Below are positions 16,341 through 58,745 of a DNA stretch of 64,000 nucleotides, piece after piece; position 1 is the first letter of the stretch, and each line of letters opens with the position of its first letter. The DNA lies in assembly GCA_964019135.1 (NCBI GenBank), contig OZ025248.1, positions 36,821,670 through 36,885,669 on the forward strand, in the 5' to 3' direction. The notes under the pieces are model-generated. The model made no database searches. It saw nothing but the letters and a program-made list of their open reading frames with translations, and had not been told where the DNA came from. A program made the position numbers and the translations under genes. Source of the stretch: Arenicola marina. Lineage: Eukaryota > Annelida > Polychaeta > Arenicolidae.

Positions 16341-16344
16341 ACAC

Positions 16345-24635: not shown

Positions 24636-25293
24636 GTGGAGCTGACCGTTGCAATGGCTGTACCAAAATAAACATAAACAGGAAATGTTACCTTTGACCA
24701 CAAGCAGTGTCAACGGCCACCGCCAAAGAAAAAGTGGCGCTCCGGACGCTTCTATTGTCTCATATAATTTAGCGCTTGGGCCCCCTGTCGGTGGCACCGG
24801 TAAACGACTTGTTTACACACGTTTATGACGTTTCAAATCAGCACAAGTTTTCATTTTTGTGGCGGACAATTCATGAATTTGAAATGTTTTGCTCATTGGC
24901 AGATAAGCGATTGGTGAGCGATATGGTAGGTGTTTATTGTCTGTTATGAACCTTAAGGCCTTAGGTTTGTGTTCTTATACGCAAATTTGGCATTCAAAAA
25001 CAGCGAAACAACTCCACATGCAACTTTAAAGCAAATCATCGATCTTTACATTTCTGCGACAAACGGAATGCCATTATCCTTGCCTGGTCAGTCCATATAA
25101 GGAGCGTTGTGGGCATAAGTATCCCTGTCTCGTGAGTTCTCGATCAGATGCCCCCCCGCCCCTTCAAACCCTAAGGTATATCTGTGCCCCCCCCCCCTTT
25201 TCAAATTATGTGCCCCCTGGCCTGTATTACAATGCATCATGAAGCTTAGTTGTTTATGTTCCTCCTCTATCTTACCAACGATTATAGAGTGTG

Positions 25294-27627
25294 ATAATAG
25301 CACGTAACGTTCACCACGGTCACCTACATTTCAGTCTTGTACACGCATGTTTTTCATGTTTTTGTGGATCAATTTCTTGTGCCCCCTCTTTTAAGAATTC
25401 CTGCACAAGCCCCTGCCCCGAGTAACAACCAATGAAATTGAATCACCTCTGGTCAGACATCAGACATCAGACATGGAGTCACTTACAAGAATTCCATAAC
25501 CGATATTTGCGCCTAATGTTACAGTTTGCCTAACAAAATCGTATTTACGTTTAGACAAAAAGCATTATAGCATTCAATCGCGGTCGTTTAAAGTTTCCAA
25601 TCGATTTGCGATGGCATTATCCCTTTCTGAATCAATCCACACCGCATTATAATCCGTATTGTAGGAAACCTGGGTCGATATAGGGGTTGAGATAATGCGA
25701 ACAATACCACTTCTAGGCTTATATGTCCATTTTCTCTGAAATGTCGACGAATGCTCTTCTAATGTATGATATTGATATATCAAACATATGATCTAGAATC
25801 GTTACAGTTAAATACAGTTTGGGGTTTAAGGCTCACGTATGGCTTTCATGAGAAGAAAGACAGCAGTGGGAATAGTGAGCGTACGTGAGGAACCGCCTTT
25901 TCTTTTCCATACTTCGCTTGATGGTGTTCAGATTTCGTTCGCGAAAATGTGTTGGACATTATTGCTTCTCGCGCCAGGTGTGTTTATCTCAGCGCAAATC
26001 AGCTATCCTTTGATATGGAAAAGTTGTGAGGAGATATCTAAAGTCATTTCGCACTCAAACCAATGTCACGTGCATGCATATCGTCTCGCAGGACTCGGAT
26101 CAGTACAGCGCGGTTTATCCTGCACTGAATTGCAGTCCTGGAAACCCTACGTCACATCACTTTAAAGCTATTAAAGGAGTTGTTTCCCGCCAACGTCAAT
26201 CACGCCATGAGTTTAAAACTGCAACATGGTATAGCCAGATTAACGTAAAAGAGATCTATTCTTGTCAATGAAATGTATTGCCTGGAGCCCGCACATTATC
26301 CCAAAAACTGTCCACTACAACAGGGAACGACACAACAAGTCACGTAGTAGACATAACACTCAATATTCTTTCATTTGAAGTAAATGCTGTAGTTTTAGAC
26401 AACGTGAATCCTAATCTTGCATTGCAGCATATTATATTCCATTTTGTTTTAATTGGTGGGAAATCTATATTTATAAATAACTTGAAGCCGGTTTTACTCA
26501 CTTGTAGAACACGACTTTCGCCGTCACGTGGCCCTCGATTAGTCCAACCAGCCCGAGGGTGAACTGAGACTGGCGAGCAGAAAGTCCGACCCCCTGTGTG
26601 CTTCCGTCCCCTGCTCTCTCGATTCCGCCCGCCACGAGGCACTGACGGCCACTCCCCCCCGATGGGCGCTAAGTGACAGACGCTTTCACCCCCCCACCCC
26701 CCGCCTTCCCCCTTTCCCCAGCAACAAGCGCAGGTCCAGCCATATCTATCGGCATTCGATCACCTAAAGCGCCATCCTAAACTATCGACGAACAACCAAT
26801 TGGCATTTGTCAAATATCATGCAGGCGGAAGTGACGTGTGCAAATCGATGGCACTGCCCTTGGTATATGTGTGTGTTGTGTATGCAGCTGGCGCCTTGGA
26901 AAACCGGGACGGGGTGGGGGACGGGGGGGGGGGGGCGGGGAAGAATGGGGTGGGGTGGGGGGCGAGGGTGGTAAGGCGGTTGGGGGGACGGGTCGAACGC
27001 TAAACCCTACGTAATGATCAAACCGCAGCAACCTCACCCCACCCAACCCGAACCGACCCGACCCGACCTCACCCCTCCCCCCCACCCCACCTGGTCCCGA
27101 TCAACAACCACTCCTTGTTCTTATGTTTTCATTACATACATCGATACGATAAAACACAGGTGAACAGGTGGCATCGCAAACAAAAAAATGGCTGACCGTT
27201 GGGGTTTGGGGTTTGGGCGTGGGGGGCCAGGTGACACGTTGACCAGGCTGATCACGACCTTCAGCCAAGAACAGCACGCTGCCCACTGGGCCACGTGGGA
27301 GGTTCCCCTTGGAGACTCTTGGTCACTTTAATGACTGTGGTAAGGTTGCAGTTCTGCCATATAGAGCCATACTTTGCTGTCGCTCTTAGTATTATGAATA
27401 ATATTTCGGTAGTGGTTGGCGGCCTAACGTTGTGCTGCACGAAATTATTTCATCAATACATTGAATCTAATGCCTAACGTAAAAGAGAAAATCCCATGAT
27501 TCGACACAGGAAAATGAATTTAAAATAAATTCGCACCGGAAGTCACACAGGAAGCATTGCTCCCGACCCACCCCACCCTATCATCAAGCTACTGACAACA
27601 GGCGGACATTGTGTAGGTTTGGAGATC
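25294..27627. other. Mostly unassigned region between the two large duplications
   Basis: AT-rich DNA up to about 26500, then a GC-rich part with a possible minus-strand exon (26502-26668), a G-rich tract (26905-26975) and a CCGAC-rich tract (27045-27065). A short CAGACAT triplication lies at 25460-25482. No gene can be named. Confidence 0.45.
26502..26668 (-). CDS. Possible internal exon, product not recognised
   Basis: On the minus strand a frame of about 55 codons is closed upstream by TAG. The AG of CACTTAG could be the acceptor, and the frame ends at a perfect donor, TACAA|GTGAGT (intron from 26501 downward). The translation contains the segment QSQFTLGLVGLIEGHVTA, then VVFYK, which looks like folded protein rather than low complexity. 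A second frame through the same stretch is also open. No partner exon was identified and the family is unknown to me. Confidence 0.22.
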
Positions 27628-28420
27628 AGGGAGGCGACCGGTTTAGTGAGGTGACCGGTTTAGTGAGGTGACCGGTTTATTGAGGCGACCGCCTTGGGGA
27701 GGCGACCGCTTTGGGGAGGCGACCGCTTTGGGGAGGCGACCGCTTTGGGGAGGCGACCGCTTTGGGAAGGCGACCGGTTTAGGCAGGCGACCCGTTTAGG
27801 GAGGCGACCCGTTTAGGGAAGCGACCGGTTTAGGCAGGCGACCCGTTTAGGGAGGCGACCGCTTTGGGGAGGCGACCGGTTTAGGCAGGCGACCCGTTTA
27901 GGGAGGCGACCGGTTTAGGGAGGCGACCCGTTTAGGGAGGCGACCGGTTTAGGGAGGCGACCCGTTTAGGGAGGCGACCCGTTTAGGGAGGCGACCCGTT
28001 TAGGGAGGCGACCCGTTTAGGGAGGCGACCCGTTTAGGGAGGCGACCGGTTTAGGGAGGCGACCCGTTTAGGGAGGCGACCGGTTTAGGCAGGCGACCCG
28101 TTTAGGCAGGCGACCCGTTTAGGGAGGCGACCGGTTTAGGCAGGCGACCCGTTTAGGGAGGCGACCGGTTTAGGGAGGCGACCCGTTTAGGGAGGCGACC
28201 GGTTTAGGGAGGCGACCCGTTTAGGGAGGCGACCCGTTTAGGGAGGCGACCCGTTTAGGGAGGCGACCCGTTTAGGGAGGCGACCGGTTTAGGGAGGCGA
28301 CCCGTTTAGGGAGGCGACCGGTTTAGGCAGGCGACCCGTTTAGGCAGGCGACCCGTTTAGGGAGGCGACCGGTTTAGGCAGGCGAACAGGTTAGGAAGGC
28401 GACAGGCATCGAGAGGCGAC
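27628..28420. repeat. 17-bp minisatellite (copy 1)
   Basis: About 46 units of 17 bp, GAGGCGACCCGTTTAGG and close variants. Units with GGTTTAG, CCGTTTAG and CGCTTTGGG form blocks that repeat in the same order, so the array grew partly by multi-unit duplication. Degenerate units mark both ends. Confidence 0.95.
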
Positions 28421-31400
28421 CGGTGGAGAGAAACTTCGCTCATGTGGAAACTATTTATAAGCGCCTTGCTATTTTGGCTCCTGTTGTTTATTCAGGCTTG
28501 GCTGATGTGCCGCGGCCGACATACCCCCATTACCCCATGTCGATAGGCCTACCCGCCGCCTATCGTCTCAGCGACGGGGGACACATAGCAGGATACACAC
28601 CGACTTCAGATAAGCCACTGGAGGGCTACCCATTATTATTAATGAACGCCATTGAATGCAATAAACCTTCCATACATTGCAGAATTTTATTGCAGAAATA
28701 TTTCGGCGGAGGGCGAGTTCCGTGGGCGAGATACGAGACACCGAAACGGACTACTTTCCCCAGCGGATTAAGAAGACGTCGGTGGTCGTACGACGTGTGC
28801 GTTCCTCGTGCGGAGTAAATGCCCCGTCTGGAGGTTATGGCATGGGGCGGGGATGATGGTGGGTGGGGGTTAGGGTCAAACGACCTCACCTATTTCTCAG
28901 ACAAGGTAACGTCCATGATAAAAAGGGCAAACGGCCCAAAATAAACGCCTAAAAGCGTATAGGGTCTGCGGCCCCATAAATTGAGATCACCCCCCCTCCC
29001 CACCCCCGACCCCCTCCTGCGAACCACAATCATAAACCCGAGGTACATCCCGGGCCTGTATTACTGTTGTTGTCAGGTGTATGTACAGTGTATATATACA
29101 GGAATCCAAACACTTGGCCAGAAATCTAAACACGTACACAAGCGCATATGTACTCCGGAGAAAAGGTGAAGAAACTGATTTATATATATATATACACGTT
29201 AACAAACAGTAGACGTATATATATTTTTTTTAAACTGACGAGTAGCTTGAAGGCTGTACTCCAGACGAACCAGAGTTGACCCCGTAGCCACATAGTCGCC
29301 CCCAACTAACCGCAACCTCCCCGACGATGTTCGGCCCAGCTGCACAAAGCGAAACGCCCGGCGGGCTATCCGGTTCAGGTTGGGTCTGGCCTGTCTGGCT
29401 GCACTGCACTGGTACAGCAAAGGCGACCTATAAGTGTATATAAACTGCTTCTCAGGGCTTCTGGTTTCTCATATTTTTTACATGACCTACATACATCCAT
29501 GGCCTGCTTACATCCATGGCCTACCTGCCTTCATGGCCTAACTATCTCTATGGCCCACCTACCTCAATGACATACCTTCCCCCATAGTTTACCTACCTAC
29601 ATGACCTACCTATTTCCATGGCTTACCTACCTCCATGACATAGCTTTCCTCGTGGCCTATCTACCTAAATTACCTATTTACATGCATGGGCTATCCACAT
29701 CCGTGACTAGAATACCTCCATGATCTGCTTACCTTCATGGCCTACCTACCTCCATGAACTATCTCCATGGCCTACCTACCGCCATGACTGGGTGCGCCTC
29801 CGGACCTGGGCACTTAATCTGGAGCAAGTTTCGCCCATTGATCATTCATCGGGCCATAAACATTCAAATTCATTATATTTCATGATTTGTCTATGACACC
29901 TCAAACACACAGGCTTACCTTTGGTGTCGCACGCCGACAACCATCGATTAATGCATCTTTGCAGTGTTAAAGTTACTCATCTAGCAATATTATTCTGTAA
30001 AAAAAATGTAAAAACTATTTTGATTGGAAATGATGTATTTATATTCTTAGCCTAGAAGTACACCTATTGTATGCAATAAAAACCCAGATATGTTGTTTAG
30101 CCTCTTTTTTGGGCAAAATTAGTGCATCTCATGTGAAAAAGTGTGGCTTTCTGGTGTACTACGTCAAAATATACACATTGCGGCAGTTTTATACCTTTCA
30201 TCATGCGATGATAGATCTATTTCTCATGAAGGTTATACATTTATACAGTCAGACAATGTGTTCTAAATGTGTTTCCAAATTATTTAGAAAAAAACATAAT
30301 TTAAGTAAAGAATTGGTGCATGAGCAGCTTTAAGTAGCCTGTAGCATCAACAGCTATCTGCATAATATTGGCTGACCTGAGGGGCTGCTCACCACGGTAC
30401 AGAAGCTGCTATCCCGAACACGGCATCCAATATGTCATCGGACGGAGAGGGTGGCATGCAGATGACGACCTGGGCTCCATGGCTCGCCGCCCATCACGGT
30501 CGTCGTATCCCGATGAATGGAGGTGGATCCAGGAGGCTGAGACCGGACGGCCAACAACACATTGGCACCGCGACGAGCAGCTCAGCATGCAGAACGCCAG
30601 GCAATGATTCACACCGCGGCAAACACGACATGGTTATCTATAACCACACACATGTGGCGATCCATTCGGAGTTTCTTTCACCCGGGCTACATAGGCTCCA
30701 GAATAATACTGACACAAGTCCCAGTAAATTGTATGTAACGATGAATGTGGAGTTAGCAACGCTACTTCCAAGACAACGAGTTCGGTTGGCGGGTGGGTGG
30801 GTTCCCGGGTGGGTGGGTTCCCTGGATGGCTTCCCAGGGTGGGTTTCACTGGGTTTTCTCCCGTCCAGGGTCGGTGGGTCGGTTGCCCGGGTTTTCTCTG
30901 GTGCAGGCCGAGCTCTAGGCTATGTGCGCAGGTACGTACACCGACCGGTCGGTTTGCTGACTCGCGTGCAAGACGACGCTTGCAAGGCGAATTTTCTAAA
31001 ATGTACTTCTGCCTCCTCCTCCTTCTCCTGGATCTGAAGCGACCAGACACACTCCCACTACTAAACACACCGGTCTGTCCGGTCCCCCAGCCAGCCAGAG
31101 AATGGGACGGGAAATGCCGTCTCTGCTCGTGACGGGCTAGCAGGAGAAGGAGAGAGAGAGAGCAGGAGAGGGAGAGGGCGAGGGAGGGGTGGGTCAATGC
31201 GATCCACCGGTCTGCAGAGAGTCAGGCGGTGAGCCAGTGTGGAAGGGGTGAAGGGGGTGGGGCTGACGGTGGCCTACTCCTGGCTTACAGGACGCGCTCC
31301 GACAGCCGCTGTAGCCGATCCAGGCAGCAGCGGTAACCTCGGGCAGCCAGCTGACGGTCGGATCCACCGGCCAACCAGCTCGTCACCATGGCAACGAGCT

Positions 31401-32450
31401 GGCTGCGTCCCGTGCAGGTCCACGTGTTTTGAAATCTGCTTGCTATCCGGACCAGTGCGCCCGGTGGGGTGGGAGGTGGGTGTGGGTGTGGGTGTGCAGA
31501 GGGGTGCGGGAGACGGGGTGGGTGCGTGGCGGGGGTAGGGTTCTCAAATTACCAAGCGCGTGGGAGGGTTGGTGGTTGAAAAGAGCCCTGAGCCTAAGTA
31601 TCTGGAACTTATACCGACATATCATTGGTGATGGTGCGGAAGGATGGAGGAGGACGTTATGACTTTTTGCACCTGCCCCCGTCGGCAACCGCCTGACCGC
31701 TCCAACACCCCCCCAGCCCCCCACCACCCTCACCCACCTAGCGCCTTGAGCTTGCTTGTTCCGTCTTCTCCCGTCGGCACACGTATGTGCTCATACCAAG
31801 GAGCGGTATGCCGCCTTCCATCTCGCAAAAGTGCAGCCAGGTGTCGATGGAATATCCAAATATTTGGGCTTAGAGGTGATGGTGGTGCACCTCGTCCCGA
31901 GCTTCCTGATAATAACCTATGGCTGTAATATCGGTGCACAGTGAGGCTGACTCGGACAAAGGAACCTTGCAAATAATGACATGAAAGATGACAGATGTAA
32001 GATAAAAGCTGAAACGGCCTCAGACACAGACGGATGACGATGTGATGATCGATATGGAACATGACTTACTGATGTGACAATATACCATTAATTGAAGCGT
32101 TAATATCAGAGTAATGTGACAATATACCATTAATTAAAGAATTTAATTTAAGCCTTAATATCAGAGTAATGTAATAATAAAAACAATTAATTGAAGCTTT
32201 AATTTCACAGTAATGTAATAATATATCTTTAATTTAAGCCTTAGTATAATCGTCTTTTGCACAATTAGACGGATGGATTCCAATCACGACGAAGACGCGT
32301 TCAAATCACATATAGCTCACACGTTACTCGCCCAAAGCACCATAATAATTAACTTAGTGAACTCGAACATGGAAGATGACCTGTCATGCCATGGTGAAAT
32401 GGAGCCAGTGGCTAATCCACGCAGGGCGTGCCCTGGGTAATTGACAAGTC
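28421..32450. other. Unassigned part of the 4.8-kb unit (copy 1)
   Basis: No gene is supported. It contains a TA-rich tract (29178-29235), a degenerate 17-bp repeat (29478-29790), GGGTGGGTTCCC-type short repeats at 30790-30860, a purine-rich tract (31141-31190) and four AT-rich units of 42-55 bp (32075-32240). Open frames of 131 codons (28423, GTG start) and 201 codons (30432) resemble nothing known. Confidence 0.45.
29478..29790. repeat. Degenerate 17-bp minisatellite (copy 1)
   Basis: Around 18 diverged units of about 17 bp on the theme CCATGGCCTACCTACCT. The units are much more diverged than the other arrays, so this is an older repeat. A matching stretch lies at 34301-34613. Confidence 0.8.
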
Positions 32451-33243
32451 AGGGAGGCGACCGGTTTAGTGAGGTGACCGGTTTAGTGAGGTGACCGGTT
32501 TATTGAGGCGACCGCCTTGGGGAGGCGACCGCTTTGGGGAGGCGACCGCTTTGGGGAGGCGACCGCTTTGGGGAGGCGACCGCTTTGGGAAGGCGACCGG
32601 TTTAGGCAGGCGACCCGTTTAGGGAGGCGACCCGTTTAGGGAAGCGACCGGTTTAGGCAGGCGACCCGTTTAGGGAGGCGACCGCTTTGGGGAGGCGACC
32701 GGTTTAGGCAGGCGACCCGTTTAGGGAGGCGACCGGTTTAGGGAGGCGACCCGTTTAGGGAGGCGACCGGTTTAGGGAGGCGACCCGTTTAGGGAGGCGA
32801 CCCGTTTAGGGAGGCGACCCGTTTAGGGAGGCGACCCGTTTAGGGAGGCGACCCGTTTAGGGAGGCGACCGGTTTAGGGAGGCGACCCGTTTAGGGAGGC
32901 GACCGGTTTAGGCAGGCGACCCGTTTAGGCAGGCGACCCGTTTAGGGAGGCGACCGGTTTAGGCAGGCGACCCGTTTAGGGAGGCGACCGGTTTAGGGAG
33001 GCGACCCGTTTAGGGAGGCGACCGGTTTAGGGAGGCGACCCGTTTAGGGAGGCGACCCGTTTAGGGAGGCGACCCGTTTAGGGAGGCGACCCGTTTAGGG
33101 AGGCGACCGGTTTAGGGAGGCGACCCGTTTAGGGAGGCGACCGGTTTAGGCAGGCGACCCGTTTAGGCAGGCGACCCGTTTAGGGAGGCGACCGGTTTAG
33201 GCAGGCGAACAGGTTAGGAAGGCGACAGGCATCGAGAGGCGAC
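32451..33243. repeat. 17-bp minisatellite (copy 2)
   Basis: Same unit order as 27628-28420, about 46 units of GAGGCGACCCGTTTAGG type. No difference between the two arrays was noticed on reading. Confidence 0.95.
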
Positions 33244-34300
33244 CGGTGGAGAGAAACTTCGCTCATGTGGAAACTATTTATAAGCGCCTTGCTATTTTGG
33301 CTCCTGTTGTTTATTCAGGCTTGGCTGATGTGCCGCGGCCGACATACCCCCATTACCCCATGTCGATAGGCCTACCCGCCGCCTATCGTCTCAGCGACGG
33401 GGGACACATAGCAGGATACACACCGACTTCAGATAAGCCACTGGAGGGCTACCCATTATTATTAATGAACGCCATTGAATGCAATAAACCTTCCATACAT
33501 TGCAGAATTTTATTGCAGAAATATTTCGGCGGAGGGCGAGTTCCGTGGGCGAGATACGAGACACCGAAACGGACTACTTTCCCCAGCGGATTAAGAAGAC
33601 GTCGGTGGTCGTACGACGTGTGCGTTCCTCGTGCGAAGTAAATGCCCCGTCTGGAGGTTATGGCATGGGGCGGGGATGATGGTGGGTGGGGGTTAGGGTC
33701 AAACGACCTCACCTATTTCTCAGACAAGGTAACGTCCATGATAAAAAGGGCAAACGGCCCAAAATAAACGCCTAAAAGCGTATAGGGTCTGCGGCCCCAT
33801 AAATTGAGATCACCCCCCCTCCCCACCCCCGACCCCCTCCTGCGAACCACAATCATAAACCCGAGGTACATCCCGGGCCTGTATTACTGTTGTTGTCAGG
33901 TGTATGTACAGTGTATATATACAGGAATCCAAACACTTGGCCAGAAATCTAAACACGTACACAAGCGCATATGTACTCCGGAGAAAAGGTGAAGAAACTG
34001 ATTTATATATATATATACACGTTAACAAACAGTAGACGTATATATATTTTTTTTAAACTGACGAGTAGCTTGAAGGCTGTACTCCAGACGAACCAGAGTT
34101 GACCCCGTAGCCACATAGTCGCCCCCAACTAACCGCAACCTCCCCGACGATGTTCGGCCCAGCTGCACAAAGCGAAACGCCCGGCGGGCTATCCGGTTCA
34201 GGTTGGGTCTGGCCTGTCTGGCTGCACTGCACTGGTACAGCAAAGGCGACCTATAAGTGTATATAAACTGCTTCTCAGGGCTTCTGGTTTCTCATATTTT

Positions 34301-34613
34301 TTACATGACCTACATACATCCATGGCCTGCTTACATCCATGGCCTACCTGCCTTCATGGCCTAACTATCTCTATGGCCCACCTACCTCAATGACATACCT
34401 TCCCCCATAGTTTACCTACCTACATGACCTACCTATTTCCATGGCTTACCTACCTCCATGACATAGCTTTCCTCGTGGCCTATCTACCTAAATTACCTAT
34501 TTACATGCATGGGCTATCCACATCCGTGACTAGAATACCTCCATGATCTGCTTACCTTCATGGCCTACCTACCTCCATGAACTATCTCCATGGCCTACCT
34601 ACCGCCATGACTG
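34301..34613. repeat. Degenerate 17-bp minisatellite (copy 2)
   Basis: Counterpart of 29478-29790 in the second 4.8-kb copy, same diverged CCATGGCCTACCTACCT units. Confidence 0.8.
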
Positions 34614-36897
34614 GGTGCGCCTCCGGACCTGGGCACTTAATCTGGAGCAAGTTTCGCCCATTGATCATTCATCGGGCCATAAACATTCAAATTCATTATA
34701 TTTCATGATTTGTCTATGACACCTCAAACACACAGGCTTACCTTTGGTGTCGCACGCCGACAACCATCGATTAATGCATCTTTGCAGTGTTAAAGTTACT
34801 CATCTAGCAATATTATTCTGTAAAAAAAATGTAAAAACTATTTTGATTGGAAATGATGTATTTATATTCTTAGCCTAGAAGTACACCTATTGTATGCAAT
34901 AAAAACCCAGATATGTTGTTTAGCCTCTTTTTTGGGCAAAATTAGTGCATCTCATGTGAAAAAGTGTGGCTTTCTGGTGTACTACGTCAAAATATACACA
35001 TTGCGGCAGTTTTATACCTTTCATCATGCGATGATAGATCTATTTCTCATGAAGGTTATACATTTATACAGTCAGACAATGTGTTCTAAATGTGTTTCCA
35101 AATTATTTAGAAAAAAACATAATTTAAGTAAAGAATTGGTGCATGAGCAGCTTTAAGTAGCCTGTAGCATCAACAGCTATCTGCATAATATTGGCTGACC
35201 TGAGGGGCTGCTCACCACGGTACAGAAGCTGCTATCCCGAACACGGCATCCAATATGTCATCGGACGGAGAGGGTGGCATGCAGATGACGACCTGGGCTC
35301 CATGGCTCGCCGCCCATCACGGTCGTCGTATCCCGATGAATGGAGGTGGATCCAGGAGGCTGAGACCGGACGGCCAACAACACATTGGCACCGCGACGAG
35401 CAGCTCAGCATGCAGAACGCCAGGCAATGATTCACACCGCGGCAAACACGACATGGTTATCTATAACCACACACATGTGGCGATCCATTCGGAGTTTCTT
35501 TCACCCGGGCTACATAGGCTCCAGAATAATACTGACACAAGTCCCAGTAAATTGTATGTAACGATGAATGTGGAGTTAGCAACGCTACTTCCAAGACAAC
35601 GAGTTCGGTTGGCGGGTGGGTGGGTTCCCGGGTGGGTGGGTTCCCTGGATGGCTTCCCAGGGTGGGTTTCACTGGGTTTTCTCCCGTCCAGGGTCGGTGG
35701 GTCGGTTGCCCGGGTTTTCTCTGGTGCAGGCCGAGCTCTAGGCTATGTGCGCAGGTACGTACACCGACCGGTCGGTTTGCTGACTCGCGTGCAAGACGAC
35801 GCTTGCAAGGCGAATTTTCTAAAATGTACTTCTGCCTCCTCCTCCTTCTCCTGGATCTGAAGCGACCAGACACACTCCCACTACTAAACACACCGGTCTG
35901 TCCGGTCCCCCAGCCAGCCAGAGAATGGGACGGGAAATGCCGTCTCTGCTCGTGACGGGCTAGCAGGAGAAGGAGAGAGAGAGAGCAGGAGAGGGAGAGG
36001 GCGAGGGAGGGGTGGGTCAATGCGATCCACCGGTCTGCAGAGAGTCAGGCGGTGAGCCAGTGTGGAAGGGGTGAAGGGGGTGGGGCTGACGGTGGCCTAC
36101 TCCTGGCTTACAGGACGCGCTCCGACAGCCGCTGTAGCCGATCCAGGCAGCAGCGGTAACCTCGGGCAGCCAGCTGACGGTCGGACCCACCGGCCAACCA
36201 GCTCGTCACCATGGCAACGAGCTGGCTGCGTCCCGTGCAGGTCCACGTGTTTTGAAATCTGCTTGCTATCCGGACCAGTGCGCCCGGTGGGGTGGGAGGT
36301 GGGTGTGGGTGTGGGTGTGCAGAGGGGTGCGGGAGACGGGGTGGGTGCGTGGCGGGGGTAGGGTTCTCAAATTACCAAGCGCGTGGGAGGGTTGGTGGTT
36401 GAAAAGAGCCCTGAGCCTAAGTATCTGGAACTTATACCGACATATCATTGGTGATGGTGCGGAAGGATGGAGGAGGACGTTATGACTTTTTGCACCTGCC
36501 CCCGTCGGCAACCGCCTGACCGCTCCAACACCCCCCCAGCCCCCCACCACCCTCACCCACCTAGCGCCTTGAGCTTGCTTGTTCCGTCTTCTCCCGTCGG
36601 CACACGTATGTGCTCATACCAAGGAGCGGTATGCCGCCTTCCATCTCGCAAAAGTGCAGCCAGGTGTCGATGGAATATCCAAATATTTGGGCTTAGAGGT
36701 GATGGTGGTGCACCTCGTCCCGAGCTTCCTGATAATAACCTATGGCTGTAATATCGGTGCACAGTGAGGCTGACTCGGACAAAGGAACCTTGCAAATAAT
36801 GACATGAAAGATGACAGATGTAAGATAAAAGCTGAAACGGCCTCAGACACAGACGGATGACGATGTGATGATCGATATGGAACATGACTTACTGATG

Positions 36898-37063
36898 TGA
36901 CAATATACCATTAATTGAAGCGTTAATATCAGAGTAATGTGACAATATACCATTAATTAAAGAATTTAATTTAAGCCTTAATATCAGAGTAATGTAATAA
37001 TAAAAACAATTAATTGAAGCTTTAATTTCACAGTAATGTAATAATATATCTTTAATTTAAGCC
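36898..37063. repeat. Short AT-rich tandem repeat
   Basis: Four diverged units of 42-55 bp, each with GTAAT or GTGACAATATACC, then TTAATT, then a CAGAGTAAT or CACAGTAAT end. The same structure lies at 32075-32240 in the first 4.8-kb copy. Confidence 0.75.
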
Positions 37064-37273
37064 TTAGTATAATCGTCTTTTGCACAATTAGACGGATGGA
37101 TTCCAATCACGACGAAGACGCGTTCAAATCACATATAGCTCACACGTTACTCGCCCAAAGCACCATAATAATTAACTTAGTGAACTCGAACATGGAAGAT
37201 GACCTGTCATGCCATGGTGAAATGGAGCCAGTGGCTAATCCACGCAGGGCGTGCCCTGGGTAATTGACAAGTC

Positions 37274-45479: not shown

Positions 45480-46411
45480 TCCCGTTAATTCGCCGGTAAG
45501 ATGAGACGACATGGCTCTTCCGTCTTTAGTTTCGTTTTACTGGGCTAATGACTTTACCATGGCAATTTGATCACACACTGTAAAAGTCTTGTTTTCCTTT
45601 GAAATACATCGCAAAGTGGCAAAGTTTTGTAGGCGCACCCCACCCCTCAATACATCTACATCTGAGGTGTGCCCCCCCCTCCCCCCCCCCGCCCGTCGTA
45701 AAATAATGGGCGGACTCTGCAGTCATTTCGCCTCTCCCCTGCCGGTCACAAGTTTTCAGTCAACCCCACCCCACTTTTCAAATTCCTAGATCCACCCTTT
45801 ATCATGTATAATGATCTGGTGACATCCGTTCACTACAGCCATTCCTGCGTCATTCCATCTTTATTCCAAGGTTTCTCCCCTGTGTGCACAATGTGGGCAT
45901 AAAACGCCAATCTATCTAGTTGAACAAATTAAACGTGGTCTGCTCCCAACTTGAATATAGGACTGGAGCTGATGTCACTGGACTACATCCATCCATCCAT
46001 CTATCCACCAATCTCCTATTCAGGACGATTATCTGCTGTTTCTATTCGTCATACAGCCATCTTCCTAATCCTCCCAGTGGCGGATCCAAGAAATTACAAA
46101 GGGGGGGGGGGGGGGGGAGGGCACAATTTATTTATTAAGTACTATCCGAGGGGCCGATCCAATGAGAAACCTAATTGGTGCGACCGGGGGTGGGGGAGGG
46201 GGGGGGGAGATGCAATAAGAATAGTGACTGCGCCCCCTTCTTCAGAGAAATGGAGGACACGGGCTACTGATTAGACAGGGGGGTCCAGGGGGGTCCGAAC
46301 CCCCCCCCCCCCCCCCCGCCACCCTTTTTTGTTAGAAGATTGTGATGTTAAACACAAGAAAAGCGCACTTTCCCACACGATGATGTTATTAGCTATTGCA
46401 ATAATAATAAT
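45480..46411. other. Spacer with long C and G runs
   Basis: Contains two C-rich runs (45670-45690, 46298-46318) and a G run of about 18 (46101-46118). Next to them lie GGCGGATCCAAGAAATT at 46079 and, on the opposite strand, GTGGATCTAGGAATTT at about 45780. The shared edge suggests two related repeats in opposite orientation. No coding sequence. Confidence 0.45.
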
Positions 46412-48310
46412 GTGCCGGCAGGTCTCAACTGCCTCAACCAGATGAAAGCTTTCGACAGGGTCGACTGGAATTTTCTGGTTCGAACGTTAAAATGTTTGGG
46501 CTTCGGGTCAAATTTTGTTAAGTGGATACAAATAATGTATACAGAGATCTTCAGCGCCGTACGAAACAATGGTCATGTATCGGAATTTTTCCAGCTCGAC
46601 AGGGGCACCAGACAAGGGTACCCCTTAGCCCTCTTTTTATACACGCTAACGGCGGAGATTTTTGCCGTAGCCATACGAAAGGAACCCATTGTTGTTGGTA
46701 TACCTCTCCCCTTTAGCAGAGTAGCCAAGATAAAACAATACGCAGATGATGCCACAGTTCTTACATCCAAAGTGGCGTCAATTGAAACTATATTTTCGAT
46801 ATGTAGAGTGTACGAGTAGGGCTTCAGGGGCTAAGATTAATACAGAAAAAACAGAGGGGTTATGGGTGGGTTCCCTAAGAGAAAGGAAAGACCGCCAACT
46901 AGACTTAAAATGGTCTTCAGAATCGGTAAAGATATTAGGATTTCACTTTGGGAATATAAACAAAGATGTTAGCAACTGGCAACCCAGAATTAAGAAATTT
47001 AAAACGATCCTAAACTTATGGAAGCTCAGGAAGATAAGCTTTCAAGGTAAAGTAATCATTTTAAATTGCCTAGCATGCTCCAGTATATGGTACTTTACCT
47101 ACATTATTCCCTTACCGGAATGGGCATGCAAAGAATTAGAAGCAGCAATGCTAAATTTTTCTTGAGTGGAAATAAACACCAGGTTTCCAAAAACCTAATA
47201 TATAGTGAACCATGCTACGGAGGACAAAATTTAATCGATATTTAGCGCAAAGTAAGATGTCAGTGTGTATTTTTTGGATCCCAATTAATGACAACCCCAA
47301 AAAGACGACTGGCAACTATTAGCTGGCCATATTATAGGTCAATACAGGGGTGCTTCTCTGGGAGAAAATATCTTAACGTTGCAATACAATTTACACAAAA
47401 ATAATGTTGCAAAAATCCCAGTTTATTACGTGGAAGTACTTAAGGCGTGGCAGGATGTCAAAATTAAAAGAACACATGGCCACATCGGTGTATTTAAACA
47501 TTATGAACCAACCGCTATTTTTAAACCCACTAATTAAACATCCCAATGGCAATTGCTTTTTCTATCCAGAATATTTGGAATCTGGTATCGTAAACATGTC
47601 TCACCTATGGGACGGGGTCTGCCTTTAGGGGCTCCGCGAGGTCGAGGCCGAGCCTAGCTTGGAAATTTCTAAGTGGAGGCCAGTTGCGGCGCATCACAAG
47701 CTCCTGGAGGCGGTCCCCAACAGTTTTGGCTATCGGCTTTATATCAAAGCCCTCAGAACAGACGGTGTTCTTATTTGGGGGAAGATAACCACCCTCTGGA
47801 AGATTACCGGTTTACCATACCGACATTATATAAACATACATACCGAGCCATTTGCCCATTTTGTCAGGATACCGTAGAGACCATTTACCATTGCTTTACT
47901 AAATGTAGTCACTTTATAAAATCAAAGGACCATTTTAAAACATTTTTCAAGAAACTCTTCAGGACTAGAAATGCACTGAATCCATTTACGTTATGCTTTG
48001 GCTTCACACAATCAGAACACGCTCAGGCCCCTCCAAATGTTATCACCTATCTCCTGAACTTATACAAACTTTCCGAATGGCTCTCCCGAAAGCTTAAAGT
48101 TAAAGGTAGAGTCTCCCCAATCTTGGACCAGTTTTAACAACGTTCTACATAACAAGATTAAAGACTATCATTTTTGTACTCAGAACACGGCTTATGCACG
48201 GACACTATTTCAAGACAAATGGAGCCGCAATAATTTTCTATGCGCAGTAGATAAAAACTTTAAAATGATTCACTTGGCCTCAGTTAACCCATATGACCCC
48301 ATGAATAAGA
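46412..48310 (+). mobile_element. Decayed L1/Tx1-type LINE, reverse transcriptase part
   Basis: The left end starts inside the reverse transcriptase domain (KAFDRVDW), followed by GTRQGYPLALFLYTL and the catalytic YADD (46739-46750). A thumb-like part (KILGFHFGN, then QGKVIILNCLACSSIWYF) comes next, and about 47850-47920 a C-terminal cysteine motif (CPFCQDTVETIYHCFTKC). This order is typical of L1/Tx1-clade elements. The pieces lie in three frames with at least three frame changes (46412-46819, 46746-47165, 47404-47628, 47673-48137), so the copy is dead. ORF1, the endonuclease and a poly-A tail are not seen, as in a 5'-truncated insertion. The copy ends around 48310. Confidence 0.85.
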
Positions 48311-49228
48311 CCATGAATAAGATCACTTCCAAGCGCGCAGCGTGCCGCCCATGGTAACACTGTTCTTTATTTGATAATAGTTGATGCATTGTTACAACCC
48401 CAGGATCTACTTTTAAGATGCGTGTTTGTAAGGTCTACCAGAAGTACCAATAGGGAGCACTAGCACAGGAATAAAGAAATAACCCCCACTCCCTCCTGCC
48501 ACCCATGCCCTCCAAACACCGCAATTAATTCCCGGTCCACCCCCCCCCCCCCCCACCCAACAGCCTCCCAATATAAAATGATACAAAAAACGTACACGAA
48601 AAATTACAACAAACATTCCCCGGTCTGTCGAGCCCAACCCCAATAATCCCCCGATATAATAAGGAAAAAAACTGTAACAGGTACTCCCAGTTTAGACGAA
48701 CCCTTCCCTAACAGTCCCCTGATATATAAATGTATTCCTCATTATATGTTGCGCCTATAAGTTATATTCCCGAGTATAAACATCTCGATGTGACCCCATT
48801 TTATGATGGTTCTTTGCATTTATGTACCATGTTATCGAAATACTGGTTTGAAATAAACACAAATACCAAAAAAGTGGCTTATAATAACATGCCCTGTTCT
48901 ATTGCATACACTGAGTGCGTTCGATTAGATAAATATAGATCGTTTACATTTCAAACGGTTTAACCGTTTCTAATGGTAAATATTGATTGATATGATAAGA
49001 GATCATAAGAGCCAGAATGCTTGGTGACGGTTGTTGCATGCCTTACCAATAGCAAATGTTATTTTTCATATATAAGCAGTGATAAGAACCGTTACTGATT
49101 TATTGTACAGCATTTTCCAGTCGCACTGGGTTTCTTGCGCTTGCTTTTGACATTTTCGGTAATTCGACCATGTCACTGGATCGGGCGGTCGACTTACCGC
49201 TTTCGGACCAAGATCATTGAACAGTTGT
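48311..49228. other. Region upstream of NSMCE3
   Basis: AT-rich DNA with a C run (48539-48556). A 77-codon open frame at 48730 shows no similarity that I recognise. The right end should contain NSMCE3 promoter elements. Confidence 0.45.
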
Positions 49229-52200: not shown

Positions 52201-55200
52201 TACTGTTGGCACCAAGCCAGGTAGCCCGCCGCAGGCGATAGTATGCCGCGGGATAAGGTGATAAGCACCCAGCGGTTGTGTTGCCACATGCGATAGCTTT
52301 GACACATCTAAGAGCGGCGGCTGGATATTAATAGGTTCAAGGCGGCTACTGGTGCCAATGGGCTCTTGCATGCCGCGGCATAGTGGGACAGACAGCTTCA
52401 TTTATTAGTATAGATGGTAGCACAGCTAGACAGATCCTGCAATACTGTATTTGACTATGGATACAGGTGGATCCAGGGGGCTCAGACCAGCCCTGTCTCT
52501 AGCTTTTTCAGCGGTGTGGACTCCTCCATGTGTTTTCTAATTAAAATTTACTTTTATTTACAGAGCTACACAAAAAATATTGTTTCGTCACAAACTGATT
52601 GAAATATGCTGACCTTCCCCTAGTGCAAAAATTCTTAATTTTTATGACTGATAACTCTATCACTAAATTTTATTGCATGTAGCTTTCTCAGCACCCCTAA
52701 AATGGTGCGATAAACCGCGATAAACCAGTGAACTGCACATAAATCTGTGACAGATATGTAGTTTACATAGCTTCCAAATTACAATGAGCAGTCAAGCAAA
52801 CAATATTTTTTCTGTCAGGTTTACCTTTATATTTTAAGCCAATGTTCGAGTTTTGTTTAATGTCAATGCTAATTTATTATCTCAGTGTGTACTATGAAGA
52901 TTTTGTATGCAGTGTATCGATTAAGTGATATTTATATACCATGTATACAGTTTTGTTAAGTTACTTTTTTTCTACCATATTGACTTGTCATTGTACGTTG
53001 ACAATATTATAATCTTGTCAACGTTAATGTATTTTACAGGATGACGATACAATGGCTCAGGCCACACAAATGACTCAGGCAGAGAAAGTTGTGGGTGCAT
53101 TAAGCGATAATGACGTGCAACAAAAGGTATACAAATTGATTACCGGTACATATGATCAATGGAGGGTACTTTGATAATTTTGGGAATCTACATACAACAA
53201 CACCTACTTGGTGATAGTCAACAGTATTTATATGAGTAGCTATATTCCGCAGTGCCCTTTAAACTACATTACTAACACTGATTTAGCGACAGGTCCAGGT
53301 GATAAATAGAGGAAATTTTTAAAAGTAGACCTGCTGAAGTTTTTGTCCAGTCCAACGTTTGGCTGGTAAAAAAAAGCATTCTGGCTGATATTCTGTTGCA
53401 AGTTCTGCTGTAGTTGTACTTCACATATAATTGTCTTCCAACCAAATTACCTGGTTGTCATAATGCGATACCTTGGGAATGATTTCATCATGAAAGATAT
53501 ACTGATGGTACTTAGCATCTACCCCTAGGTAAATGACTTGGTGGGCTATCTGTTAATCATGCACCAGAAAAAGTACCCCATCAAGCGGCAAGGTGAGTTT
53601 ACTATCTGTGGTGTCCCAATGGCAAGTCTGTGTCCGTAACATTTAATAAAACATCTTATTGTCTGCCGATAACATGGGGGTGTAGTGGTTTGGTTGTTTG
53701 TTACGTGTATCAAAGAGACAGACAGCTTCAGACCGATTCAGAGCCCAAAAAATAACTACCGATATATCAAACAGTAAAGATTATGGAAACATTACCTTTG
53801 TTTGTTTTTACTTTAATGATATGCTGATCAGTTTAGGGGCCACTTGTTTGGTTTGCACATTTTTGTTGACTGACCTCTTTCACACTGGAAATTGTTTAGT
53901 GTACATGTATCTAAGACACACGGGGGGCCTACCTGGTATAGTGGTTAACCGCAATAGGTCCTGGGTTTGATCCTGGGCACCCAAGCTGAAGCTTCATGCT
54001 TCATGGTCCCAGGAGTTTCTTTGGTCCAGTTTAGCCCGTGTGTGTATAAAAGCGCGTAAAACACCTGTATGTACTTCAGATCTAAACTAAAGAAACGACC
54101 AACCTTTTATTCGCCTCTTTACCTCTCCATCGGCATGACAGTCGGTTGACAAGTGTTTTGTACTTGCAGAATCTCTATTGCTGTTGAATGTTGTATTCCT
54201 GTGTTTTTGTAGATATCAACAAGGTTGTGTTAAAGGAGCAGTCCCGAGGGTTTAACGCCTTCATGGTAAAAGCCAAAGCCAAGCTACACGAGGTTTGTAC
54301 ATCCTGATATCATTCAGAAACGCTTCTTACCTAGTCTTCTCTAACTAATAGTTCATAACTTCAGTTCTGATAAAGGTTACTTCCTCTAAAGATATCCGCT
54401 TCGTTACAAACTATTTCATAGAAGCAATTTAACTTCATCGGCAGTTTTATCCGGACGTGAAACGAGGCTGTCGCACATATTGAACCTACAGCCTGCTGCA
54501 TTGTCTTGGTGGGTTCTCATTACAGCTTAACCCCATGGTTTACTCCACGGCTATGCTTGCATTAATTTTGACAGGTTTTCGGGATCGAACTGGTCGAATT
54601 GGACAGCAAACAGAAAAGTTACATTCTAATCAACGAACTGGAAACGGAAATAGATGATCCACATTTATCATGGTGAGTTGTTTTACGGTTTATAAATGAA
54701 AAGGGAGATCTTCATTAATCAGGATCAGTTGGTGTACAGTTAGTTGAAGATCCGTTTTTATGAGCCAGTAACTTGCACGCATCATAATTACCGGTAGTCT
54801 GCCTTCGCTCTTACCGGAGAATGAAACTGAAACTGAAACAGTTTGGTAAAGTAGTGTGCAGCCGATGAAAGGTATTATTAATTCTCCTATTAGAATCGCC
54901 GCCGCCGAACACACAACAACCTGTTGTCTAATGCCGTGTACGAATGGTTGTGAGAGAGCCATCGCGAGTCTACATATTGTTAATGGACATTAAAAATAAC
55001 CTAAGTCCGCTACAGAGTGATGTCTGGCCATTAGATCTACCCAGCGCCCTGCACATTGGCGCTGCTGGTCCCTAAACATTATTGCGTCTACAATATGTAT
55101 TCAAGTTATGTGAAATCACAAACCAATTTCAAAGGGTGGAGTTATGCACACAGTGAAGTGTATTTCATATACATGCGACTGTTCCGTACGTCACACTGAT

Positions 55201-56182
55201 CTTTATTTAGCCTGGCGCGACTTTGATATTTCTGTCATCTATTTTTTTTCTGTAGCTACCGTAATAGATCTCATTTATCCGTCGTCTTTGAAAAACGCTT
55301 GAAATTATTTCTCAGAAATATATTTCTGTTTTTCTAGAATTAAGTGGAATATTTAACATTAATGTTCATCATCTAAATTACATTCAAGAGATATATCTTA
55401 AATAGTCCAAATTGATGACAATGTAGAGAGTTTGATAGCAGGAACAAGTTCTTATCGTTCTTATGACGACGCCATCTTGACGTTGAGTAAACACCAAATA
55501 TTACCCATAGTTCATAGCGCATGCAGTGGCGCCTCACTGTGGACTACTCTGAAGTCGTGTGTGACTTATTTGCGGTGTTTTCCGTCTTCCTTCAGGCCTC
55601 CTGAAGACAACGCCACGATGGGTCTGTTAATAATAGTCCTCAGCGTCATCTTTATGAGTGGAAACACCATCGAAGAAGGTGAGTACAGATTATGGGTGGA
55701 AACACCATCGAGGAAGGTCAGTACAGATTATCAGTGGAAACCCCATCGAGGAAGGTGAGTATAGATTATGAGTGGAAACACCATCGTGGAAGTTGAGTAT
55801 AGATTATGAGTGGAAACACCATCGTGGAAGTTGAGTATAGATTATGAGTGGAAACACCATCGTGGAAGGTGAGTACAGATTATGAGTGGAAACACCATCG
55901 AGGAAGGTGAGGACAGATTTCGAGTGGAAACACCATCGAGGAAGGTGAGTACAGATTATGAGTGGAAACACCATCGAGGAAGGTGAGGACAGATTTCGAG
56001 TGGAAACACCATCGAGGAAGGTGAGTACATAGTTTGTCTTGGATACATGATGCCACGTGTATGTCACGTGTCAGTATCATCTTGTGGAAGTCCATGTATC
56101 GTTATCAATGATTTAGTAAACAATTTATCGCAGCTTTCATAAATAGATTTGATATATCGGCTTAATAAACGTTCAATGATTG

Positions 56183-56228
<46 letters not shown>

Positions 56229-57603
56229 TATAGTTACTTGGCTTAAACAGTTCCTTTTTCTTTATTTTATCTCCAGACAAACTGTTCCATACCCTAAAGA
56301 AACTCGGAGTTGACGTTGAGTGAGTATTGTATCCCCACTTTGATAAACAAAGATTTGGTAGTCTTCAATAGCTAGCATCTCTAACGTTAGTTACCATGTA
56401 CGCCAATATTACATTTCGTGGGCTAGTATTACTCACGCCTACCATGTACACCAATAATACATTTTGTGGTCTCAATAGTTTTAGTTATTAACTTCACATG
56501 ACGCTGTTACATTTAAATAAATACGTCAATTAAGTATGGCACAGACGGACGTTTGGAGACATGTGGCGTCATGCTATTTTCTTGTTTACAGACATCCGCA
56601 TGAGGTGTTCGGGGACGTGAAGCGGTTCTTAACCCAGGAGCTGGTAAAGCAGGGATACCTCCAGTACACCAGAGTGGACCTCTCGGACCCTCCGGCCTTT
56701 AACTTCACCTGGGGCCCGAGGGCTAAAGCAGAGACGTCACAAAAGCACGTATTGGACTTTGTTTGTCAGGTGGGTAGACCTTTATATAGATATATTATGT
56801 AATAATTAAAAAACAAAATAAAATCCCAACCAAAAATGACATTAATAATGAAAATATTGATCACTGCCTGAATAAAGAACTATTCATGCCAGGTTTTTTT
56901 TTATCGGAATAAACTTTTGCAAATGGTTTTGAATGGCAATGTCGTTATATCCCTGAAAACATCATCTTTTAGTTCCATGTATGAATGTTAGCTTCTTTTC
57001 AACCGGGATTCGCCATACATCACCAAGCCCCACTTTTACTATTAAAGATCATCCTGAAAAAAAAGAACATCCACAAAAACCTTTGCCACGATTTTAGCTC
57101 TAAAAGCAGAAGCATCGATTAACGGGATGTGATTCGATAAACTAAGGAAAGGCGGATTTCGTGTGGAAATCCTCTGCGGGCGTCGTTAACAAATTGTTCT
57201 CATGTTTTCATGTCCCGATCGACTGCAATTTCCATTGCCGACTTAAGCATTAAAAAAAACGACCGACCCTTCGACCCTCTGACTATTCTGCCCTCGCTGC
57301 ATGTCTTGAATGTTTTAATTTTGTTAATTTTGCTTTTTTCTACCGAACGACCGACCCAATTGTTGATGACAACGGACATGAGAAACAATTTAATAACGAT
57401 GCCTTGATCATATAGTCTGGATTTGATTTGGGGCTTATAGGCACTTTCAGCCTTGCCATATAAATGTCTCATAGTAACAGATTAATGATACCTGTGTTGT
57501 CTGTTCTGGTATACAGGTGTACGGAGACAAAGATCCCACGGACTGGACCAGTCAGTGGCAGGACGTCCTGCGCTCCGAGGACATGGAGTCCGTGTCCGGA
57601 TGA
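49288..57603 (+). CDS. NSMCE3: NSMCE3 (MAGE family), SMC5/6 complex subunit, 9 exons
   Basis: Exons 49288-49338, 53040-53126, 53529-53592, 54213-54292, 54575-54672, 55596-55678, 56277-56319, 56592-56769 and 57517-57603 join in frame (771 nt, 256 residues plus stop). All introns are GT-AG. Residues 42-240 form the MAGE homology domain. The first winged helix reads VQQKVNDLVGYLLIMHQKKY onward, with KSYILINELE. The second has GLLIIVLSVIFMSGNTIEE (136-154), FGDVKRFLT, FNFTWGPRAKAETSQKHVL and DPTDWTSQW. These match vertebrate NSMCE3 closely and in order. NSMCE3 pairs with NSMCE1 and NSMCE4 in the nuclear SMC5/6 complex, stimulates the NSMCE1 RING ubiquitin ligase and supports recombination repair. 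Human NSMCE3 is about 304 residues with a longer N-terminus and an intronless coding region. Exon 6 and exon 9 are each the seed of a tandem repeat (55654-56033 and 57517-58525). Confidence 0.94.
50297..50464. repeat. Foldback element in NSMCE3 intron 1
   Basis: Arms of about 35 bp at 50297-50332 and 50428-50464 are imperfect inverted repeats (GCGCCTCTGTGCTCATT against AATGAGCACTGAGGCGT), separated by about 95 bp. The DNA could form a hairpin. This resembles a small non-autonomous DNA transposon, but target-site duplications were not identified. Confidence 0.5.
50580..50640. repeat. Short 17-bp tandem repeat
   Basis: Three to four units of AAGTTGGCCGCCGATT type in NSMCE3 intron 1. A small local array with no evident function. 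Confidence 0.75.
51590..52412. repeat. Dispersed repeat, copy 3 of 3, in NSMCE3 intron 1
   Basis: Matches 16345-16890 and 24100-24635 from TCTAGCGTTCGTA to TTAGTATAGATG. It also carries extra sequence that the other copies lack, at about 51655-51795 and 51980-52105. Either the extra segments are part of the longer original element and the other copies are deletion derivatives, or they are insertions. Confidence 0.65.
53931..54090 (+). repeat. tRNA-derived SINE in NSMCE3 intron 3
   Basis: Has an A box (TGGTATAGTGG, 53934-53944) and a near-consensus B box (GGTTTGATCC, 53964-53973), then CCCAGGAGTTTC and a tail with GCGTAAAACACCTG. The core and tail resemble the SINE at 37430-37642. The A-B spacing is shorter than in a functional tRNA. 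Confidence 0.65.
55654..56033. repeat. 38-bp minisatellite made from the exon 6 end and its splice donor
   Basis: Ten units at exact 38-bp spacing (GTGGAAACACC at 55658, 55696, 55734, 55772, 55810, 55848, 55886, 55924, 55962, 56000). Each holds the last coding bases of NSMCE3 exon 6 (AGTGGAAACACCATCGA) and the donor region. Some units keep GTGAGT, one has GTCAGT, two have GTTGAG and two have GTGAGG. Use of a later donor would shift the frame or meet the TGA at 55756-55758, so the first donor at 55679 is the productive one. Confidence 0.93.
56187..56224. repeat. (TA)n microsatellite
   Basis: About 19 TA dinucleotides in NSMCE3 intron 6, some 50 bp before the acceptor of exon 7. Confidence 0.95.
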
Positions 57604-58525
57604 GCCTTCTGATCCAGGTGTACGGAGACAAAGATCCCACGGACTGGACCAGTCAGTGGCAGGACGTCCTGCGCTCCGAGGACATGGAGTCCGTGTCCGG
57701 ATGAGCCTTCTGATCCAGGTGTACGGAGACAAAGATCCCACGGACTGGACCAGTCAGTGGCAGGACGTCCTGCGCTCCGAGGACATGGAGTCCGTGTCCG
57801 GATGAGCCTTCTGATCCAGGTGTACGGAGACAAAGATCCCACGGACTGGACCAGTCAGTGGCAGGACGTCCTGCGCTCCGAGGACATGGAGTCCGTGTCC
57901 GGATGAGCCTTCTGATCCAGGTGTACGGAGACAAAGATCCCACGGACTGGACCAGTCAGTGGCAGGACGTCCTGCGCTCCGAGGACATGGAGTCCGTGTC
58001 CGGATGAGCCTTCTGATCCAGGTGTACGGAGACAAAGATCCCACGGACTGGACCAGTCAGTGGCAGGACGTCCTGCGCTCCGAGGACATGGAGTCCGTGT
58101 CCGGATGAGCCTTCTGATCCAGGTGTACGGAGACAAAGATCCCACGGACTGGACCAGTCAGTGGCAGGACGTCCTGCGCTCCGAGGACATGGAGTCCGTG
58201 TCCGGATGAGCCTTCTGATCCAGGTGTACGGAGACAAAGATCCCACGGACTGGACCAGTCAGTGGCAGGACGTCCTGCGCTCCGAGGACATGGAGTCCGT
58301 GTCCGGATGAGCCTTCTGATCCAGGTGTACGGAGACAAAGATCCCACGGACTGGACCAGTCAGTGGCAGGACGTCCTGCGCTCCGAGGACATGGAGTCCG
58401 TGTCCGGATGAGCCTTCTGATCCAGGTGTACGGAGACAAAGATCCCACGGACTGGACCAGTCAGTGGCAGGACGTCCTGCGCTCCGAGGACATGCAGTCC
58501 GTGTCCAAATGACCCGATCCGGTTC
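57517..58525 (+). repeat. 101-bp array of the NSMCE3 terminal exon, ten copies
   Basis: GTGTACGGAG occurs at 57517, 57618, 57719, 57820, 57921, 58022, 58123, 58224, 58325 and 58426, exactly 101 bp apart. Each unit is the complete 87-bp terminal exon including TGA plus 14 bp ending CTTCTGATCCAG, so every copy has an AG just before the exon. Copies 1-9 look identical and encode ...MESVSG. Copy 10 differs (MQSVSK) and continues into unique DNA, so it may be the ancestral end. Only the first copy has a long pyrimidine-rich stretch before it. Confidence 0.96.
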
Positions 58526-58594
58526 CGGTTGCTGCAGCTCAAACATTGTGATTGCGCAAAGTGGTGCTCATCTTCACCGTGTTATTGGGCGGTG

Positions 58595-58745
58595 TGGGGA
58601 GTGGAAGGGGGCGCCGTAGTCGTGAGGCTGATGTGCCCCGGTGGCCGGTTCGAACCCCACCTGGGTTCTGGGGATCGTTCCATGCCTTCATGTCATTACC
58701 CCAGTGGTTCCTTGGTTGAGTTTTGTTCTTACTGACTACAGCAAC
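58595..58745 (+). repeat. SINE-like element downstream of NSMCE3
   Basis: Has a strong B box (GGTTCGAACCCC, 58647-58658), a weaker A-box-like CGCCGTAGTCGTGAGG, and then CCCAGTGGTTCCTTGGTTGAG. That core aligns with those of the other SINE copies in the window. It lies where the NSMCE3 3' UTR would be. Confidence 0.5.

Follow-up and report, generated by a model that had tools for sequence, protein, structure and literature searches.

The window analysed here is a stretch of 64,000 nucleotides of the Arenicola marina genome, and positions within it are counted from its first letter. It carries a gene whose seven upstream coding exons have GT/AG ends and join in frame to the first of ten tandem copies of the last coding exon (table 1). 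The predicted 235-aa product matches Pfam MAGE (1.3e-39) and, in PDB, the NSMCE3 chain 9lwi_E (1.3e-50), which bears out the name that an earlier note, made from the letters alone, had given to the gene. That note also spoke of an exon 8 ending at 56769; the end is right, and we count seven coding exons before the last, so that the number fits if a single 5' non-coding exon is included, because an acceptor stands before the ATG of the first coding exon. The last exon supplies residues 208–235, and residues 208–229 align with residues 270–290 of 9lwi_E, where the MAGE homology region ends. Thus, a working copy of this exon is probably needed by NSMCE3. The gene is single-copy: 16 of 16 genome matches of the protein fall at its own locus, ten of them being the copies of the array. 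A multi-copy gene or a dispersed exon is ruled out, given that all 16 protein matches and the only full DNA match lie at this one locus. Upstream of NSMCE3, at 46352–48357, the window holds broken reverse-transcriptase-like open frames, judged by eye to be a relic of LINE type.

Table 1. Features of NSMCE3 (positions in the window) and donor-side arrays at exons elsewhere in the genome
Feature	Position	Strand	Repeat	Remark
NSMCE3 first coding exon	53040..53126	+		in-frame ATG at 53052
NSMCE3 coding exon 2	53529..53592	+
NSMCE3 coding exon 3	54213..54292	+
NSMCE3 coding exon 4	54575..54672	+
NSMCE3 coding exon 5	55596..55678	+		first unit of the 38-bp array forms its 3' end
Exon-5 donor array	55652..56029	+	38 bp x 9.9	unit is the end of exon 5 (..GGAAACACCATCGAGGAAG) plus donor (GTGAGTACAGA..)
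NSMCE3 coding exon 6	56277..56319	+
NSMCE3 coding exon 7	56592..56769	+
Copy 1 of terminal coding exon	57517..57603	+		87 nt; acceptor TTGTCTGTTCTGGTATACAG; predicted functional copy; sole copy with the original intron-end acceptor
Spacer GCCTTCTGATCCAG	57604..57617	+		14 nt; acceptor-like; recurs before copies 3–10 at steps of +101 bp
Copies 2–9 and the seven spacers between them	57618..58411	+		all identical to copy 1
Copy 10	58426..58512	+		three exonic substitutions in two codons; ends MQSVSK-stop; original 3' flank
AATAAA	59458..59463	+		a transcript with all ten copies may end here
L054, myosin			62 bp x at least 25	exon end and donor repeated
L061, myosin			37 bp x 6.6	exon end and donor repeated
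L074, myosin			100 bp x at least 15	exon end and donor repeated
L075, myosin			126 bp x 2.9	exon end and donor repeated
L082, kinesin			71 bp x at least 5	exon end and donor repeated; sole standing donor case in 10 kinesin matches

Comparison of the sequence within the window places ten head-to-tail copies at 57517–58526, at a step of exactly 101 bp (starts at 57517, 57618, 57719, 57820, 57921, 58022, 58123, 58224, 58325, and 58426), and TRF calls the same array (57514–58506, period 101, 9.8 copies, 99% matches). The unit consists of an 87-nt terminal exon, its TGA stop included, and a 14-nt spacer, GCCTTCTGATCCAG, that ends in AG. This spacer precedes copies 2–10, and in front of copy 1 the true intron end takes its place. 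Copies 1–9 are identical over the full 101 bp, whereas copy 10 matches over its first 69 nt, carries changes at unit positions 70, 82, and 83, and diverges past the stop; the translated C-termini are MESVSG-stop in copies 1–9 and MQSVSK-stop in copy 10. Both altered codons change the amino acid, which drift alone does not predict, although two codons prove little. Most of what the earlier note had described is thereby upheld, namely a tenfold array with a 101-bp period, a unit made of the whole last exon with its stop and 14 bp ending in AG, nine identical copies followed by a divergent one, and the inference that near identity reflects recent spread or homogenization. Its start for the array, 57517, also stands, and its end, 58525, does not, as the exon of copy 10 stops at 58512. 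Chance is not possible as the source of the array. When positions 57400–58600 were compared with the assembly (867 Mb in 762 contigs; one assembly and one locus), two matches were found, the locus itself and, on contig C2, a 35-nt match to part of intron 7, and this nucleotide search of the 867 Mb returned no other full match of the array DNA. As to where the spacer came from, it resembles the intron end weakly (131 of 2000 shuffles were as good) and the 3' flank still less (773 of 2000).

We favor, at a probability of roughly 70%, the hypothesis that the array is a minisatellite with a complete terminal exon as its unit, tolerated downstream of a working copy 1 and produced by a process that recurs in a minisatellite-rich genome. 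A tandem duplication would have fused the 3' flank of the exon either to the start of the exon or to the last part of intron 7. Slippage during replication or unequal exchange would then have multiplied and homogenized the unit until ten copies were present. Exon 7 would be spliced to copy 1, the keeper of the original polypyrimidine tract. In the most likely transcript, as we predict it, translation ends in copy 1, and because the stop codon of that copy ends translation, copies 2–10 would lie in the 3' UTR, possibly extending up to the AATAAA at 59458. Such an array may be tolerated because the extra copies are downstream of a working one and because an accidental choice of a later acceptor would still give a full-length protein. 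We infer the use of copy 1, the 3' UTR fate of the others, the mechanism of expansion, its neutrality, and the selection rule proposed below; the two arrays of the gene, the identity of their host gene, the exon-end arrays elsewhere with their orientation in the sample, and the protein that follows from each splice choice are seen directly in the sequence.

A second array in the same gene lies at the donor of exon 5, where GT is retained in 8 of 10 donors. Only the first of these donors yields the full protein; donors 2–10 all truncate it to 152–170 aa. Thus, the 5'-most donor is the one used if the gene works, and the other copies are intronic. Copies 1–9 of this array differ by a mean of 3.3 positions per 38 bp, and it is therefore older or less homogenized than the array at the last exon.

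The earlier note suggested that every copy could act as an alternative last exon. On this alternative, several of the ten acceptors are spliced and give interchangeable or back-up ends, of which copy 10 provides a slightly different C-terminus. Every copy does have an AG acceptor, an in-phase open frame, and its own stop, and each of the ten acceptors leads to a protein of 235 aa, nine of these ending in ESVSG and one in QSVSK; this part of the claim stands. The acceptors of copies 2–10 are, however, poorer than the seven annotated ones, with pyrimidines at 9 of 17 positions from -20 to -4, as compared with 11 for copy 1 and 10–15 for the other six annotated introns. They also lie 11 nt from the previous AG. 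The same 11-nt distance occurs in the first coding intron, and so a short gap of this kind is compatible with use of copies 2–10. Given the poorer acceptors, copy 1 should be favored without the later ones being dead; as judged from the sequence, copies 2–10 each offer a usable-looking AG with a short run of pyrimidines. Use of the copies as internal exons would require a donor, and the best GT sites inside the unit (CAGGTGTAC and CCAGTCAGT) score 6 of 9. The annotated NSMCE3 donors score 6, 9, 6, 8, 9, 6, and 8 of 9, so that the GT sites of the unit equal three of them and internal-exon use is compatible with the score.

Other considerations make alternative last exons unlikely. Nine copies are identical, and a choice among them leaves the protein unchanged. 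AATAAA and ATTAAA are absent inside the array, so that the copies do not each have a poly(A) signal of these two forms; the one at 59458 is the sole AATAAA or ATTAAA on the + strand between 57601 and 61500. Furthermore, two reports describe spare copies as unused, in the wMT-2 gene of an earthworm and in amphioxus (PMC12783039, PMC3087553). On the other side, the genome does contain tandem exons that look alternative, at positions ~110–154 of the myosin model every 0.8–1.0 kb (C4:380231-383133) and at positions ~590–640 every 0.9–1.4 kb (C4:367768-371306). The likeness of the NSMCE3 array to mutually exclusive or alternative last exons is that several copies of one exon, with acceptors, are adjacent. 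In such systems real introns separate the copies, each of which has its own sequence and product. Nine of the ten NSMCE3 copies are identical and the copies are 14 bp apart, whereas the myosin exons of this genome are 0.8–1.4 kb apart. The myosin gene itself (C4:367768-384073) has two runs of four alternative-looking exons, at model positions ~110–154 and ~590–640, and these runs resemble the mutually exclusive exons of the fly Mhc gene. A broader version of the idea, that exon 3' ends are recurrent one-directional targets of minisatellites through which the genome makes spare donors and last exons downstream, with the ten complete last exons of NSMCE3 spliced roughly at random as a fail-safe against mutation and a source of new introns and exons, is similarly improbable in our view.

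We also considered whether the true locus has one or few copies, the array being an assembly artefact or its copy number inflated. The window shows possible signs of assembly error, including a 200-N gap at 17452–17651 with a long duplication on both sides and a head-to-tail duplication of 4,825 bp at 99.96% identity, and the copy number may therefore be wrong, although an array of 1 kb with unlike flanks should be easily spanned. Ordinary long reads exceed ~1 kb, the length of the last-exon array, and copy 10, like either flank, has a sequence of its own. In addition, arrays of many other units occur across the sample described below (102 merged arrays in 63 loci). We regard an artefact as still less likely than alternative use of the copies. 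The two parts of the 4,825-bp duplication (27626–32450 and 32449–37273) have minisatellites of their own inside and represent either a very recent duplication or one made in assembly. The flanks of the gap pair 14239–17302 with 21978–25049 at 97.7% and 11629–14205 with 19458–22033 at 94.9%, a pattern that two haplotypes joined end to end would produce.

The perfect identity of nine copies, and the large part of the 3' UTR that the copies are predicted to occupy given the AATAAA at 59458, could suggest that the nine extra copies have a role in RNA stability, localization, or recombination and are kept by selection. Recent expansion or homogenization already explains the identity, however, and the diverged exon-5 array of NSMCE3 (3.3 differences per 38 bp in copies 1–9) points to no such need. 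Selection of this kind seems to us the least probable of the explanations considered.

Comparable arrays occur at other exons of this genome. TRF was run on 63 loci (231,478 bases, including three stretches adjoining the window; period at least 10 and at least 2.5 copies), and arrays cover 16.2% of these bases and 24.1% of the window. Exon edges were inspected at 70 loci. These comprise the top 30 among 122 kinase matches, the top 30 among 77 myosin matches, and, out of 133 kinesin matches, the first ten in the table on chromosome-size contigs. Exon-end arrays are present at 6 of the 70, with five at donors among the 40 myosin and kinesin matches and the sixth in CDK9. The description of the NSMCE3 array as unusual in the earlier note thus holds in part: arrays at exon ends are not rare, and in this sample no other array was seen to hold an entire exon together with its acceptor. 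In the 1.5-kb flanks of the 30 myosin-head matches, arrays with a period of at least 15 make up 27.4% of the sequence upstream and 26.8% downstream, as compared with 3.8% inside the matches themselves. By the edge rule, acceptor edges are engulfed at 0 of 30 myosin matches and donor edges at 5 of 30, four of which stand after reading; the fifth, L071, was rejected as an overrun of the model into the intron. Similarly, an acceptor-side candidate at a kinesin match (L079) proved to be a model overrun and intronic, and the arrays at L049, L050, L060, and L068 touch or adjoin an exon without containing it. At L054 (1623–3174), where the donor is GTAGGC, the 62-bp array contains the exon end plus donor in 20 exact copies. 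At L061 (1673–1908, reverse-complemented) the 37-bp unit contains an acceptor-like end, CCCCACAG, a 12-nt exon (TGTCATCATCAG), and a GTACGT donor, and this array is possibly a minisatellite of 12-nt micro-exons.

The edge rule gave 0 of 30 for the kinase matches. The CDK9 array lies in one of these loci (L022; PDB match 1.1e-144) and was noticed outside the rule, by reading the TRF list. It begins ~97 nt before the end of the coding frame and repeats a 107-bp unit at least 13.6 times, reaching the end of the fetched stretch (2238–3663), with ...FERVF-stop repeated at least 12 times. It is the nearest parallel to the last exon of NSMCE3, with a unit in which no acceptor is visible. Ten of the 30 kinase loci are on small contigs, and all ten have in-frame TAA or TAG. 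More generally, kinase and kinesin matches on small contigs (C330, C443, C465, C497, C504, C536, C609, C652, and C684) contain in-frame TAA or TAG and no TGA, which suggests that these contigs come from an organism in which TAA and TAG are sense codons, for example a contaminating ciliate. The mitochondrial contig of the assembly (15,942 bp) has its genes on one strand in the order nad4L-nad4-...-nad1-nad3-nad2-cox1-cox2-...-cox3-nad6-cob-atp6-...-nad5, with cox1 assigned by Pfam, the others by eye from translations, and one tRNA found by ARAGORN. Four gene-order changes are listed in PMC2639372 for annelids, pogonophorans, and myzostomids, and this contig shows all four. The order rejects amphioxus as the host and makes an annelid very probable; a GFP-family search of the genome gave 0 matches, as did its control.

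A search by eye for runs of the same exon spaced by less than 500 bp found none in the tables of matches to kinase, p450, myosin, and kinesin (122, 97, 77, and 133 matches, from scoring of the best 120 of 1191, 92 of 492, 65 of 168, and 122 of 240 candidates, respectively); such a look for whole exons is blind to partial-exon arrays, and those of L054, L061, L074, L075, and L082 did not show in it. Wider spacings of the same exon do exist, at 0.8–1.4 kb in myosin and every ~8.5 kb for a kinase gene on C5. The latter is a tandemly repeated gene, with five kinase matches of equal score ~8.5 kb apart (C5:5402476-5437356).

The sampled arrays appear to favor one direction of growth. Among the 40 exon matches, donor-side cases outnumber acceptor-side ones by 5 to 0 (two-sided sign test, 0.0625; Fisher test of 0/40 against 5/40, P = 0.055). 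For myosin at 27% coverage, the binomial probability of finding no acceptor edge engulfed among 30 is 8e-5, and that of at most four engulfed donor edges is 0.06; some loci overlap, and these statistics are therefore guides only. Acceptor choice involves scanning for the first AG. We favor the hypothesis that arrays arise anywhere and that selection removes those in which the first copy fails. Arrays engulfing the 3' end of an exon, be it a donor or a stop codon, would survive and those engulfing a 5' end would mostly be lost, because growth at a donor or stop places the extra copies downstream of a working one whereas growth at an acceptor places them inside the exon. This apparent rule would provide a natural experiment on splice-site choice where identical donors or acceptors lie next to one another. 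It also bears on the proposal, made in PMC3087553, that boundary repeats seed new introns. The NSMCE3 observation is true and its explanation mostly ordinary, a mirage-type array (see below) in another phylum; arrays that grow from the 3' ends of exons are the more interesting lead, from a small sample.

Several known systems invite comparison. The zinc-finger array of PRDM9 and MUC1 resemble the NSMCE3 array in that a tandem repeat holds coding sequence. Their units are in frame and are translated as repeats. Since each NSMCE3 unit contains a stop and its length of 101 bp is not divisible by 3, the NSMCE3 units are not translated in series, which sets the array apart from coding VNTRs. Closer in phylogeny is the wMT-2 metallothionein gene of an earthworm, in which the fourth of four exons is duplicated twice, once in inverted orientation, and the duplicates are absent from the transcript (PMC12783039). 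It shares with NSMCE3 an annelid host and a duplicated last exon, and differs in that there is no tandem minisatellite of identical units. Beyond this exon duplication, searches of open-access literature turned up no report of exon-boundary minisatellites in annelids.

The closest relatives are the mirages of amphioxus, which two papers describe as tandem repeats across exon–intron boundaries in Adh3, the globins BflGb6 and BflGb9, PGBD5, and troponin C, with units of 10–160 bp (Adh3 and the globins) and splice signals inside the copies (PMC3087553, PMC3902484). In BflGb6 the inner units are homogenized and the boundary units excluded, and the data suggest undisturbed splicing; its array is on the acceptor side and that of BflGb9 on the donor side (PMC3087553, PMC3902484). 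Beyond sequence, the definition of a mirage takes in undisturbed splicing and length instability between haplotypes or cells. Judged by the DNA, the NSMCE3 array appears to work like a mirage and falls within the sequence part of the definition. In particular, its 101-bp unit spans an exon boundary as an acceptor-like spacer with the exon, the spacer being not clearly intron-derived, and the 38-bp unit of the same gene spans the donor of exon 5. Homogenization inside with an excluded edge is likewise seen, as copies 1–9 are identical and copy 10 differs; at the other edge, the exon of copy 1 is unchanged and only its upstream flank differs. The sampled annelid arrays are at exon 3' ends only, whereas amphioxus has arrays on both sides. 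The NSMCE3 array further differs from the amphioxus mirages in its host, an annelid rather than a cephalochordate, in a unit that is a complete, stop-bearing terminal exon, and in its ten copies. The recurrence in an annelid of boundary minisatellites described from amphioxus suggests that they are a general by-product of minisatellite-rich genomes.
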